The notes below the pieces were generated by a model. It did no database searches, had not been told where the DNA came from, and saw nothing but the letters and a program-made list of their open reading frames with translations. This document shows, piece by piece, positions 49,570 to 55,323 of a stretch of 64,000 nucleotides of DNA. Each line of letters opens with the position of its first letter. The first letter of the stretch is position 1. The translations under genes were made by a program, and so were the position numbers. Source of the DNA: Hyphomonas adhaerens MHS-3 (GTDB lineage: Bacteria > Pseudomonadota > Alphaproteobacteria > Caulobacterales > Hyphomonadaceae); contig NZ_ARYH01000001.1 in NCBI RefSeq assembly GCF_000685235.1, positions 1,550,001-1,614,000 on the forward strand, written 5' to 3'.

Positions 49570-49775
49570 AGCCGCAGATTTTTTTCATTCGTGTAATGTT
49601 TTCTGCAGAGTCTCGCCCACTGTGCCGGGCCGGAACAGGTTTCCAAACATCCTCCTAATGAGCGCGCGTAAACTCTCATAACGGGTTACGCGTGGGCTTA
49701 AGGGGAAGCGCGTAGTGTCCATATTCCGGGCTCTCCAGAAGGAGTGTCCGCCCTCTATTGGAAAATGGTGTGGAT
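49570..49775. promoter_or_regulatory. sciP upstream region with a 7-bp inverted repeat
   Basis: CGCGTAA (49665-49671) and TTACGCG (49686-49692) form a perfect inverted repeat with a 14-base spacer, 83 bp upstream of the sciP start. Inside it, GTAA and ATAA are spaced by six bases, weakly reminiscent of CtrA half-sites. One GANTC site (GAGTC, 49608-49612) is also present. No gene is seen here. Confidence 0.35.
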
Positions 49776-50048
49776 ATGGAACAGCAGAATGCAAAACCGA
49801 TGAGTGTGAAAGGCCCTGACGGCCAGAAGCTCACAATGGCGGATCTCCCGTCGCCGAACATTTCCCGTTGGGTCACCCGCCGCAAAGCGGAAGTGGTTGC
49901 CGCCGTTGCCGGTGGCCTGCTGAGCCGCAAGGCTGCGTGTGATCGCTACAACCTGACGGATGAAGAGTTCGAAGGCTGGGAGCGACTTTACCTGCGTCAC
50001 GGCGCCAAAGGCCTGCGCACGACCCGCCTGCAGCAGTATCGCCGCTAG
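49776..50048 (+). CDS. sciP: CtrA inhibitor SciP (DUF1153)
   Basis: 90 residues from the ATG at 49776; a TTG at 49758 and a GTG at 49770 are also in frame. SciP is a small helix-turn-helix protein that binds CtrA and blocks its recruitment of RNA polymerase. Highly conserved blocks: GPDGQKLTMADLPSPNISRW, VTRRKAEVVAAVAGGLLSRK and a final TTRLQQYRR. It sits directly upstream of the flagellar operon, and ctrA lies 4.6 kb downstream. Confidence 0.95.
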   Translation: MEQQNAKPMSVKGPDGQKLTMADLPSPNISRWVTRRKAEVVAAVAGGLLSRKAACDRYNLTDEEFEGWERLYLRHGAKGLRTTRLQQYRR

Positions 50049-50055
50049 GCGTTTG

Positions 50056-50070
50056 TTAAACCCAAATTTA
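50056..50070 (+). promoter_or_regulatory. Candidate CtrA box of the flagellar operon
   Basis: TTAA-ACCCAAA-TTTA fits the CtrA consensus TTAA-N7-TTAA with one mismatch and correct spacing, 61 bp upstream of the fliF start. Another TTAA is at 50082-50085. Two GANTC sites follow (GAATC 50104-50108 and GAGTC 50122-50126). Confidence 0.55.
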
Positions 50071-50130: not shown

Positions 50131-50793
50131 ATGGCGCACGGAAGATCCGGTATCTCGCGCGGCGCGGCGCCTTCCACACGGGCGCTCGCGTTCGCGGCAT
50201 GTGCGGTGGCCCTCGGCCTGCTCGCCTGGCGCGGCAGCGATGTGATCAGCCGTACCCCCGCATCGCCCGGTCCGCTTTCCCAGTCTGAAGCGTCCCTCCT
50301 GTCTGTCGCCGAAGCGATGGCGGGGCAGGGGCATGTCCGCATTTCCATTGTCCGCCAGCCAGGTGCTGTCCGGCAGGTCCTGCTGCTTCTGGACGAGGCG
50401 GCCGGCGTGGACGATGCGACGCTGTCCAACACCATATCCACGGCTGCCGGGCTCGACCCTTCCAAGGGAGAAGGCGTGGACCTGCAGCGTGTGGCCTTCG
50501 CGCCCGGTATCAGCGGCGCGCCGCTGCCGCGCGACTGGGCGGAATTGTCGTTGCTGGCCCTGCTGGCCGGTCTGGCTGGATGGATCGGTTTCCGGGCGGA
50601 GCGCCGCGAAGAGGCGCCTGTCGAACTGGTGCAGGAATCCCTGCCAGGCCGTGTGGCGCAGCCCGCTGCGGAACCGGCCGTTCGCCCCGTCGCCGTGCAC
50701 GATGATGATGCCGCAGACCTCGCCCGCCGTGATCCCGGCCGGGCAGCCGATGTCGTCCGCGGCTGGATGAGTGGCAATGGAGGCAATGCATGA
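50131..50793 (+). CDS. fliF: Reduced FliF-like MS-ring protein (no RBM1/RBM2)
   Basis: 220 residues versus about 530-560 in normal FliF. Layout: membrane helix near residues 18-33 (LAFAACAVALGLLAW), one FliF_C-like beta/alpha segment (residues about 50-125: VRQVLLLLDEAAGVDDATLS, GLDPSKGEGVDLQRVAFA), a second helix near 138-153, and a cytoplasmic tail ending in RRDPGRAADVVRGWM, which matches the FliG-binding tail of FliF. The YscJ-type RBM1 and RBM2 domains are missing and no other frame upstream contains them, since sciP is there. It is followed immediately by fliG (4 bp overlap), which supports a FliF role. A full-length fliF elsewhere in the genome cannot be excluded. Confidence 0.75.
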   Translation: MAHGRSGISRGAAPSTRALAFAACAVALGLLAWRGSDVISRTPASPGPLSQSEASLLSVAEAMAGQGHVRISIVRQPGAVRQVLLLLDEAAGVDDATLSNTISTAAGLDPSKGEGVDLQRVAFAPGISGAPLPRDWAELSLLALLAGLAGWIGFRAERREEAPVELVQESLPGRVAQPAAEPAVRPVAVHDDDAADLARRDPGRAADVVRGWMSGNGGNA

Positions 50794-52617: not shown

Positions 52618-53628
52618 ATGCGTATGAAGATGTTCGCCGCCGAGACCTTCGAGGCTGCCAAGGCGATGATTTTTGCCGAGATGGGAGCCGATGCGGTGAT
52701 CCTGTCCGAGCGCGAGATTGATGGTGGCGTGGAAGTTCGTGCGGCGGTCGACAAGATGGGCGGCGTCGGCATGGTGCCGAATGAGCCGCTGTTCCTGCGC
52801 GATGCGCGCGGTGGCGGCCATGGCCGAGGTTCCGAAAATCCCCTGTTCAGCCGCGTGCGCGATGCGCTGCTCTGGCATGGTTCACCGCAGCGTTTTGCGG
52901 ATCGTATTGCCGCCGAAGGGGCTGGCCGCGTCCAGCACCTGAGAGATCCGGAAGAGGCCATCTCCGAAGGCCTTGCCCGCATCGTGACCTGCGATCCGCT
53001 GCCTGCGCGCCTGGACCGCGATATTCTTCTGGTCGGCCCGCCCGGGCACGGCCGCACCGCCACAGCTGCCAAGCTGACCCGCCGCGCTGCCATGGCGCGC
53101 GCCGAAGTGGCCCCTGTGGCCGCTGACCTTGACGGCACAGCTGGTGGGGCACAGCTGGCGGCGTATCTGGAGCGGGAAAAGAGCCAGATCCGCACCTGCC
53201 AGTCACCGGATGACCTGTTCGCGACATTGAAGACGCTGAAGACCGAGAACCGCCGGTGCGTGATCGATCTGCCGGCCATCAATCCATTCGATGATGACGA
53301 TATGGCCAGCCTGCAGGACCTGATTTCCGTCATTCGCGCCGAGCCTGTGCTGGTCCTTTCAGCCGAAGGCCACCCCGACGACCAGCTTGAAGCCGCCCGC
53401 AGCTTTGCCAGAGCAGGCATCAAGCGGGCCATTCTGACCAAACTCGATGTTGTCCGAAGGAGGGGCGGGGCCATATCCGCCCTGTCGTCGGCCGGCATTG
53501 CCTTCTCACACCTTGCCGTCACCCCGTTCATCGGCGGCGGACTGGTCCCGGCAGCGCCCATGCGCCTTGCCGCCCTGTTGATGGAAGATGCCCCGGGCGA
53601 CGTGATCGCCCTGAAAGGAGCCGCGTAA
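52618..53628 (+). CDS. flhF: FlhF-like signal-recognition-type GTPase with degenerate catalytic motifs
   Basis: 336 residues. The N-terminal FlhF B domain (KMFAAETFEAAKAMIFAEMG, ADAVILSERE) and the SRP-type NG domain pattern are present. The P-loop reads GPPGHGRT at 140-147, with Arg146 for the essential lysine; the G3 motif DTAG is replaced by DLPA (217-220), and only G4 TKLD is normal. FlhF sets the position and number of polar flagella; GTP hydrolysis here is probably impaired. flhG follows by 4 bp. Confidence 0.82.
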   Translation: MRMKMFAAETFEAAKAMIFAEMGADAVILSEREIDGGVEVRAAVDKMGGVGMVPNEPLFLRDARGGGHGRGSENPLFSRVRDALLWHGSPQRFADRIAAEGAGRVQHLRDPEEAISEGLARIVTCDPLPARLDRDILLVGPPGHGRTATAAKLTRRAAMARAEVAPVAADLDGTAGGAQLAAYLEREKSQIRTCQSPDDLFATLKTLKTENRRCVIDLPAINPFDDDDMASLQDLISVIRAEPVLVLSAEGHPDDQLEAARSFARAGIKRAILTKLDVVRRRGGAISALSSAGIAFSHLAVTPFIGGGLVPAAPMRLAALLMEDAPGDVIALKGAA

Positions 53629-53632
53629 TCCC

Positions 53633-54475
53633 ATGAGTTTCATGATGCGCAAATCGCAGGAACGTCCGGCGCCGCGGCCAACACCGCGGCGGGTCGAGCC
53701 TGCGTCGATCATCGCAGTTGCGAGCGGGAAGGGCGGCGTCGGCAAGACGTTCATGGCCATCACGCTGGCATCCGCCTTCGCCCAGGCCGGTAAACGCACC
53801 TTGCTGGTGGATGGGGACCTTGGCCTCGCCAATGTCGACGTCCAGCTCGGCATCGCGCCTGAAACCGACCTCGCGGCCGTTATTGCCGGCTGGGTCGAGC
53901 TCGACGATGCCGTGACGCCAGTTGATGGCGGCGCCGCAGATGGCGGGTTCGATGTGCTGCCGGGCCGGTCAGGCTCCGGCGCGCTGGCAGAACTGCCGCC
54001 AGAAGAAGTGGCCCGCCTCGCGGCCGGTCTTTCCGCGCTGGCCCTGCAATATGACCAGGTCGTGGTCGATCTCGGCGCCGGGATCGAGGCGAACTGCATG
54101 CGGCTTGCCCGTGCTGCCGACAAGGCCCTGATGGTGATCACGGACGAGCCGACGTCGATGACCGACGCTTACGCCTTTATCAAGGTGCTGCGCGGCTATG
54201 CGCCGAATGTCGAGCCGGTGGTCTGTATCAACCAGGCCGACAGCCGTGCTGCCGGACAACGGACTTATGAGGCGATTGCCCGGGCGTGCCAGACTTTCCT
54301 TGGCTTCCGTCCGCATCTGGCCGGTGTTGTGATCCGCGACCCGAAGGTCCGCGATGCAATCCGCTGCCAGAAGACACTGATTTCCACAGATCCTCAGGCT
54401 CAACCTATCCAGGATGCCATCGCAATCAGCCAAATGCTGATCGGTGCAGCCTCGGCAGCGGAGCTTGGCAATTAA
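53633..54475 (+). CDS. flhG: FlhG/MinD-like flagellar number regulator
   Basis: 280 residues. Deviant Walker A SGKGGVGKT at residues 31-39 is intact, followed by the A' motif VDGDLGLANVDVQLGI and the B motif VVVDLGAGI (in FlhG usually D-x-G-A-G). FlhG antagonises FlhF and limits flagellar number. A proline/arginine-rich N-terminal extension (QERPAPRPTPRR) may be equivalent to the FlhG activator helix region. A C-terminal amphipathic MinD-type helix is possible but weak. Confidence 0.9.
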   Translation: MSFMMRKSQERPAPRPTPRRVEPASIIAVASGKGGVGKTFMAITLASAFAQAGKRTLLVDGDLGLANVDVQLGIAPETDLAAVIAGWVELDDAVTPVDGGAADGGFDVLPGRSGSGALAELPPEEVARLAAGLSALALQYDQVVVDLGAGIEANCMRLARAADKALMVITDEPTSMTDAYAFIKVLRGYAPNVEPVVCINQADSRAAGQRTYEAIARACQTFLGFRPHLAGVVIRDPKVRDAIRCQKTLISTDPQAQPIQDAIAISQMLIGAASAAELGN

Positions 54476-54609: not shown

Positions 54610-55323
54610 ATGCGCGTCCTGCTAATTGAAGACGATAGCGCCGTCGCGCGTTCCATCGAGCTGATGCTGAAGTCCGCGGGCTTCAACATCTACGCCACTG
54701 ACCTCGGTGAAGAAGGTGTCGATCTGGGGAAGGTCTACGAGTACGACATGATCATCCTTGATCTGTCGCTGCCTGATATCTCCGGCTACGAAGTCCTCAA
54801 ACAGCTGCGTATGGGCCGCGTGAACACGCCGGTCATGATCCTCTCCGGTAACCCGGACATCGAGGCAAAAGTCCGCACGCTGGGTTATGGCGCTGACGAT
54901 TACCTCACCAAGCCGTTCAACAAGGACGAGCTGATCGCCCGCATTACCGCCATTGTGCGCCGCTCCAAAGGCCATGCCGAGAGCGTGATCCGCACCGGCG
55001 AGATCCTGGTGAACCTCGACGCCAAGACGGTGGAAGTGGACGGCGACCGCGTGCACCTCACCGGCAAGGAATACCAGATGTTCGAGCTGCTTTCCCTCCG
55101 GAAGGGCACGACGCTGACCAAGGAAATGTTCCTGAACCACCTCTATGGCGGCATGGACGAGCCGGAACTGAAGATCATCGACGTCTTCATCTGTAAGCTC
55201 CGCAAGAAGCTGCAGCAGGCCACCGGCGGCAATCACTATATCGAAACGGTCTGGGGCCGCGGCTATGTGCTCCGCGATCCGCGCCCGAGTTCGAAAACGA
55301 GCGAGGTCGAAGAGGCGGCATAA
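54610..55323 (+). CDS. ctrA: Cell-cycle master response regulator CtrA
   Basis: 237 residues. An OmpR-type response regulator: receiver domain with phospho-acceptor Asp51, and a winged-helix domain whose stretch [40 protein letters not shown] and [15 protein letters not shown] is almost invariant in CtrA. The protein ends in Ala-Ala (VEEAA), the residues needed for ClpXP degradation in Caulobacter. It activates flagellar and division genes and silences the origin. Its phosphodonor ChpT and inhibitor SciP are also in this window. Confidence 0.98.

Follow-up and report, generated by a model that had tools for sequence, protein, structure and literature searches.

The short fliF gene examined here encodes a mini-FliF of 220 residues. 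It is a genuine gene and not a chance ORF, and it is both conserved and subject to purifying selection. Comparisons of sequence and gene order lead us to regard it as probable that this protein is the FliF of the ancestral (Caulobacter-type) polar flagellum, reduced in place, and that the rotor and stator of that flagellum outlasted its export gate, rod and filament, swimming having passed to another flagellum. The neighbouring fliG, fliH and fliN genes, together with remote fliM, motA and motB genes, make up a second rotor-stator set, conserved in its own right.

The window, that is, the whole 64-kb stretch of DNA that we analyzed (contig C1, positions 1550001-1614000), belongs to a genome of 3.67 Mb in 9 contigs, and the features discussed below are collected in Table 1. 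A first-pass annotation of this DNA had reported a complete ORF with sciP directly upstream and a 4-bp overlap with fliG. All of this was confirmed; the overlap that joins mini-fliF to fliG reads ATGA. Homologous open frames of similar size were found in 41 of the 42 genomes of the genus, the one miss being a genome that is 74% complete, and sciP adjoins mini-FliF in 40/40 Hyphomonas loci compared for synteny. The dN/dS ratios were 0.10-0.26 for mini-fliF against nine relatives and 0.07-0.11 for fliG2. Presence in nearly the whole genus also rules out a deletion limited to this isolate, which the annotation had envisaged, as the origin of the short FliF. Damaged genes of the set were seen elsewhere: in Hyphomonas oceanitis (L193, the same place as L035) mini-FliF is frameshifted into 217 and 67 aa with its neighbours intact, and in a Hyphomonadaceae MAG (locus L219) fliG2 is broken into two frames of 240 and 75 aa. 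Further downstream, flhF adjoins the mini-FliF operon in only part of the genus Hyphomonas, and flhG is 69-75% identical to the flhG found at the same locus in two related genera.

Table 1. Features of the mini-FliF locus, in coordinates of the 64-kb window
Feature	Position	Strand	Basis and remarks
sciP (CtrA inhibitor), directly upstream of mini-FliF	49758..50048	+	NCBIfam CtrAInhibSciP, 129.7 bits (cut-off 100)
CtrA-box-like site TTAA-N7-TTTA upstream of mini-fliF	50056..50070	+	Site scan, 19 mini and 3 full loci
Mini-FliF, 220 aa	50131..50793	+	ATG start, TGA stop
First membrane helix, residues 14-40	50170..50250	+	AlphaFold2 model
RBM3 core (alpha-beta-beta-alpha-beta) without beta-collar insert, residues 51-121	50281..50493	+	Model and profile alignment
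Second membrane helix, residues 133-155	50527..50595	+	AlphaFold2 model
C-terminal tail, predicted to bind FliG, residues 191-213	50701..50769	+	Two helices in model
fliG2, ancestral FliG, 310 aa	50790..51722	+	Pfam FliG_C, FliG_M, FliG_N; torque-helix charges; tree
fliH2, FliH N-terminal half only, 140 aa	51719..52141	+	hhalign
fliN2, 88 aa	52138..52404	+	Pfam FliMN_C, 3.7e-21
flhF (polar GTPase)	52618..53628	+	NCBIfam TIGR03499, 3e-22, below its cut-off
flhG (MinD-like ATPase)	53633..54475	+	ParA/MinD-type families
ctrA, downstream neighbour	54610..55323	+	NCBIfam CtrA, 411.6 bits (cut-off 350)

Searches of mini-FliF gave a single sub-threshold match to an unrelated family in Pfam and no match in NCBIfam, and YscJ_FliF (PF01514, RBM1-2) was not matched. 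The proposal of an intact FliF lacking RBM1 and RBM2 is supported, and such a protein would make a new architecture. An AlphaFold2 model built from 21 sequences (mean pLDDT 79) predicts both of the membrane helices that had been annotated, together with an RBM3 core in which pLDDT is mostly above 90. The annotation had recognized only the second part of RBM3. This needs correction, since the mini-FliF family profile aligns to both the start (full-FliF residues ~240-272) and the end (~385-421) of RBM3 and the model shows a complete RBM core. In a Ponticaulis full FliF, for example, mini-FliF residues ~49-81 align to 240-272, 89-125 to 385-421 and 189-222 to 525-558, so that the beta-collar insert, ~112 residues of the full protein (273-384), has no counterpart. 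The model has a short hairpin where the RBM3 insert would be, and the cylindrical beta insert of the SpoIIIAG type is absent.

Of the full FliF ORFs, 27/27 (21 distinct sequences) were matched by the mini-FliF profile, the matches lying in the RBM3 and tail blocks; in a search limited to these 27, whole-sequence E-values ran from 2e-14 to 3e-9, single blocks being weak. Searched against PDB sequences, the profile matched Salmonella FliF (E 3.6e-7). In a Foldseek comparison of the model, several FliF, PrgK and EscJ ring domains appeared at probabilities of 0.90-0.99 among the top 50 matches. However, none had an E-value below 0.001, a redox protein came first and unrelated folds scored equally; therefore, our view of the fold rests on the profile alignment and the model. 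The tail resembles those of Salmonella FliF (6scn) and of the Hyphomonadaceae full FliF, and this resemblance suggests that it binds FliG.

By prediction and homology, then, mini-FliF is like the MS-ring protein FliF in lying upstream of fliG and in having two membrane helices, an RBM3 core and a C-terminal tail. It differs in the absence of RBM1, RBM2 and the beta-collar insert, in its length (220 against 548-604 aa) and in its retention in genomes without FlhA. A second comparison can be made with SpoIIIAG, the Bacillus sporulation ring protein, which presumably has neither a second helix nor a FliG tail and differs from mini-FliF in both. SpoIIIAG is a ring protein homologous to RBM3, according to excerpts of two papers (PMC8786727, PMC8092281), and it has a cylindrical beta-barrel insert, whereas mini-FliF does not. 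The former paper also reports, in the part available, that Salmonella RBM3 with its collar makes rings on its own (PMC8786727). The ring built by FliF has about 34 subunits.

The annotation had supposed that mini-FliF, if functional, would build an MS ring, and had proposed a genome search for a second fliF, which with its own flagellar cluster would count against that reading. Such a gene was found: a full-length FliF of 503 aa, at C1:1266.9 kb and 333 kb from mini-FliF, has an apparently complete flagellar cluster of its own, and PF01514 matches no other gene of the genome. The only FlhA of the genome also lies in that cluster (C1:1292.8 kb), and not with mini-FliF. With a separate full FliF and flagellar cluster present, it is very unlikely that mini-FliF serves the swimming flagellum as its MS ring. 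In this cluster (L002, L050), Pfam confirms FliL, FliF, FliN, FliP, FliG, FlgI, MotA and FlbT, and FliM barely over the cut-off; a MotB is located at C1:1276.8 kb, and the names of the hook, rod, flagellin, FliI, FliR and other genes were read from ORFs and not from family profiles. The host genome has two FliG_C matches. One is the swimming FliG (L002:13073-14188), whose torque helix is degenerate, the usual Lys and last Arg being replaced. We also considered a split FliF, in which mini-FliF would partner with a separately encoded YscJ/RBM1-2 protein, as had been suggested. This idea was abandoned, as no second PF01514 protein occurs in the genome, and none at all in nine mini-FliF genomes without FlhA (see below).

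To place mini-FliF in relation to full FliF, 80 sciP loci from named genomes were compared. The gene after sciP was mini-FliF at 57 loci and a full FliF at 22, and one locus ended at a contig edge; 21 of the full FliFs were complete (548-604 aa) and one ran off its contig. The mini-FliF loci belong mainly to Hyphomonas and Henriciella, and the full-FliF loci to Ponticaulis, Hirschia and others. Downstream of both kinds of FliF come fliG and fliN, as far as the contigs reach, and flhF and flhG are next in the two outgroup loci that were studied in more detail. In a FliG tree rooted with the FliG of the swimming flagellum, FliG2 was sister to the FliG of related genera. A TTAA-N7-TTTA site was found upstream of the fliF gene at 15/19 mini loci and at 3/3 full-fliF loci of related genera, and the other four mini loci have either a perfect TTAA-N7-TTAA (two) or another one-mismatch form (two). 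We call these sites CtrA-box-like on the basis of TTAA-N7-TTAA, which we take to be the CtrA consensus. Their conservation suggests that CtrA control of the old operon persists. Some titles in this collection deserve mention: four loci (L196, L197, L201 and L202) are titled Acidobacteria/Candidatus Sulfopaludibacter and yet have a Hyphomonas-type sciP/mini-FliF, so that the titles are probably wrong, and L224 (Hyphomonas sp. ih12) has a full ancestral FliF, unlike the other Hyphomonas-titled loci that extend past sciP.

We then compared the remaining members of the set. FliG2 aligns to solved FliGs, and that of the window keeps the charged torque positions, which we take to be K264, R281, D289 and R297 (E. 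coli numbering). The same charges are kept in seven of eight FlhA-less genomes examined, the exception being G072. In MotA, R90/E98 are reported to pair with FliG D289/R281 (PMC7564593, in the excerpt available). The EHPQ motif of FliG2 varies and is poorly kept, and its N-domain is shortened. fliH2 has no FliH match in Pfam; aligned by hhalign to the N-terminal half of the FliH of related genera, it gave a probability of 94.8% and an E-value of 5e-8 for one template. The C-terminal half of FliH, missing from fliH2, is presumably the part that binds the ATPase FliI.

fliM2 lies at C1:291.5 kb, beside dksA. In relatives, the locus beside dksA reads flgH-flgA-flgG-flgF-fliL-fliM (names read from ORFs), and in the mini-FliF lineage flgH, flgA, flgG, flgF and fliL are gone from this ancestral fliM locus. 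The C-terminal domain of FliM2 is FliMN_C in 11/11 homologues, and its N-terminus keeps an EIxALL-like motif. No PDB sequence was matched by the FliM2 sequence; its model, however, matched FliM in the C-ring (Foldseek E 4e-12), and the identity of FliM2 was settled by this structure comparison. Homologues of all three switch-complex proteins, FliG with its torque helix, FliM and FliN, are thus present in the set. Two other genes near fliM2 were kept in 6/6 of the FlhA-less fliM2 neighbourhoods fetched. One, beside dksA and fliM2, encodes a protein of 422 aa without a Pfam family of its own (L049:13633-14901), and this protein may belong to the complex as well. The other is a second FlbT (L049:15889-16275); FlbT is a flagellin regulator in Caulobacter.

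The stator genes are scattered, with the second MotA (MotA2) at C1:595.4 kb and the second MotB (MotB2) at C3:185.3 kb. The channel Asp of MotB2, which binds the proton, is present in 8/8 copies examined, six of them from FlhA-less genomes, and the peptidoglycan (OmpA) domain of MotB2 and the conserved regions of MotA2 are retained. MotA2 is 46-48% identical to the MotA of related genera, and the MotA of the swimming flagellum 53-56%. Because MotA2 is the more diverged of the two, its vertical descent is less certain than that of FliG2.

We also surveyed 105 genomes of the family Hyphomonadaceae, from 10 genera. Mini-FliF occurs in 73 of them, all within five genera, and in none of the other five. 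In an order-wide search (398 genomes), short mini-FliF frames were found only in Hyphomonadaceae among the matches listed, those outside the family being all in frames of 494 aa or more. Related genera without mini-FliF have an extra FliN-like gene of 84-87 aa (L079:8016-8273, with six similar loci, L080-L085), which sits away from the flagellar genes recognized in those loci. It was tried as a marker of a hidden mini-FliF locus and set aside, as BLAST with the window proteins found no sciP, FliG or FliF in 7/7 loci (L079-L085).

The coexistence of mini-FliF with a flagellum raises the question of whether mini-FliF, FliG2, FliM2 and FliN2, with MotA2/MotB2, are accessory parts of the swimming flagellum, such as a second C-ring or a stator of a second type. 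Indeed, 64 of the 73 mini-FliF genomes also have FlhA, and 63 of these 64 have a full FliF; two MotA genes occur in 63/64, two or more MotB genes in 64/64 and exactly four FliMN_C genes in 60/64. Furthermore, a swimming FliG without two of the usual torque-helix charges might borrow FliG2. However, fliF, fliG, fliN, fliM and motA genes and a MotB are already part of the swimming cluster, and FlhA is missing in 13 of the 105 genomes, nine of which keep mini-FliF (G026, G038, G043, G044, G062, G067, G070, G072, with a partial frame, and G088). In these nine the rotor set and a MotA persist with neither FlhA nor a full FliF, PF01514 being absent in all of them, and we consider such a hybrid motor unlikely.

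The composition of the nine genomes is nearly uniform. FliG2 is present in 9/9, and exactly two FliMN_C genes, FliN2 and FliM2, in 9/9. One MotA occurs in 9/9, and the five fetched were MotA2 (55-65% identity). One MotB occurs in 7/9 (not in G072 and G088), and the six fetched were MotB2; G088, without a MotB match, is 80% complete. No rod, hook or filament genes were recognized beside fliM2 or mini-FliF in the fetched FlhA-less loci, where chosen proteins were compared. The other four FlhA-less genomes vary: G042 and G054 lack mini-FliF and also MotA and MotB; G073 keeps MotA, MotB and FliM2 and has no mini-FliF match; and G064, probably a fragmented assembly, has two MotA and two MotB.

These observations also bear on a static role, in which mini-FliF, FliG2/FliM2/FliN2 and FlhF/FlhG would form a non-rotating polar platform for polarity or for the control of flagellar genes. 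The clustering of FlhF, FlhG, SciP and CtrA with mini-FliF would suit such a platform, as would the second FlbT near FliM2. On the other hand, a platform that does not rotate is at odds with the torque charges kept in FliG2, with the proton-binding Asp and peptidoglycan domain of MotB2 and with the conserved regions of MotA2, and also with the absence of MotA and MotB from both G042 and G054, in which mini-FliF is lacking. We regard a static scaffold as distinctly improbable.

In the FliG2 tree, the nine FlhA-less genomes stand at about six places, several of them beside flagellated sisters (G026 by G022; G038 by G033 and G034; G088 by G087), and G062, G067 and G070 form one clade. The seven of the nine that could be matched to named records are all MAGs, and a binning gap could account for the missing flagellar cluster. 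Against this, three MAGs with different isolate names fall in one clade and are all without FlhA, as is every one of the three genomes of genus g2. When an empty site of the swimming cluster was looked for in G070 by comparison with G053, 97 of 357 query ORFs were matched and the gene order was shuffled.

A last alternative is that the set is a remnant of the old flagellum that is decaying and has no function today. There are signs of decay: G072 looks degraded, with a frame of 131 aa, a long branch, no MotB match and lost torque charges, G054 and G042 are without mini-FliF, and one Hyphomonas copy is frameshifted. However, retention across the genus Hyphomonas, the low dN/dS ratios of mini-fliF and fliG2, and the retention of the same components at several places in the tree argue against a relic, which was already unlikely and which we consider very improbable.

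Returning to the reading that we prefer, the retention of the ancestral rotor and stator, mini-FliF would be a minimal rotor anchor made of a membrane helix, the RBM3 core, a second membrane helix and a FliG-binding tail. Through the RBM3 core it would assemble into a small ring in the membrane that lacks both a collar and the RBM1/2 housing of an export gate, FliG2, FliM2 and FliN2 would build a C-ring on the tail, and a dedicated proton stator of MotA2/MotB2, anchored to peptidoglycan, would push on FliG2. From the ancestral system RBM1/2 and the collar are gone, as are its flhA, the FliH C-terminal half and the rod and ring genes beside fliM, and a second flagellar cluster would have taken over swimming. 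Since the lost parts are those that serve export and the structures outside the inner membrane, the complex would be a rotor and stator with a role independent of a flagellum. CtrA probably controls it, and FlhF/FlhG probably give it a polar position. Sequence comparison establishes the homology, the identity of the locus, the parts lost and kept, the joint retention in genomes without FlhA or full FliF, the selection and the preserved torque and proton residues; ring assembly, rotation and polar position are what we infer from it. Less favourable to this reading are the poorly kept EHPQ motif and shortened N-domain of FliG2, the less certain descent of MotA2, the decayed set of G072, the frameshifted Hyphomonas copy, the lack of a MotB match in G088, and G073, which has MotA, MotB and FliM2 and no mini-FliF match. 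The stronger proposal is that it is a free-standing rotary motor whose MS ring has shrunk to one ring-building motif and which has a C-ring and proton stators, and no export gate, rod, hook or filament. This motor would be conserved across Hyphomonas, Henriciella and relatives, would be kept after flagellum loss, and would probably serve as a mechanosensor or in another non-swimming task. Taken as a whole, we hold this proposal to be evenly balanced. Because nothing known would turn outside the inner membrane without export, the output is perhaps the state of stator engagement. By analogy with the mechanical pathway of Caulobacter, we would guess, rather tentatively, that load or a surface is sensed in this way.

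Several known systems help to place the set. The Myxococcus gliding motor AglRQS is likewise a MotAB-type stator without a flagellum, and it differs from the mini-FliF set in having no known FliG/FliM/FliN rotor. The set resembles the bacterial flagellum itself in its FliG, FliM, FliN, MotA and MotB homologues with their key residues, and differs from it in that nine genomes with the rotor set lack FlhA and that flgH, flgA, flgG, flgF and fliL are absent from the ancestral fliM locus. In Caulobacter, mechanical activation of adhesion in a flgH (late-assembly) mutant needs proton flux through MotB and the inner-membrane rotor, and DgcB associates with the stators, as excerpts of one study report (PMC7885107). 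That surface-sensing pathway shares with the present set an inner-membrane rotor and a proton-conducting stator; however, its motor sits in the flagellar basal body, whereas the mini-FliF motor would be a dedicated one. We set aside the hat-like structure described in a study that includes H. neptunium as a candidate for the mini-FliF complex, since the part of that study available describes it as widespread, with E. coli and Salmonella among the many species that have it (PMC9380563). The loss of flagellar genes in Lysobacter was likewise set aside as a precedent, as it does not, in the excerpt available, concern a kept motor (PMC9927559). A literature search, mostly of papers outside subscription, found no FliF without RBM1/2 and no motor-only derivative of the flagellum.

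Non-flagellar type III secretion systems are reported to derive from the flagellum through partial loss (PMC3459982, in excerpt), and they offer a mirror image: there export was kept and the motor lost, whereas in the mini-FliF set the motor was apparently kept and export lost. Type III secretion systems are flagella cut down to the exporter; the mini-FliF set, if real, would be a flagellum cut down to its motor, and would be the counterpart of those systems. It would mean that a rotor-stator pair can be useful by itself, and would offer structural biologists a naturally occurring minimal MS ring with which to study FliF, FliG and stator coupling. Hyphomonas neptunium, a stalked bacterium that multiplies by budding, is amenable to gene deletion, according to the part available of one report (PMC7200025). 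If the set is real, the role of a motor without a propeller would become testable in this species.
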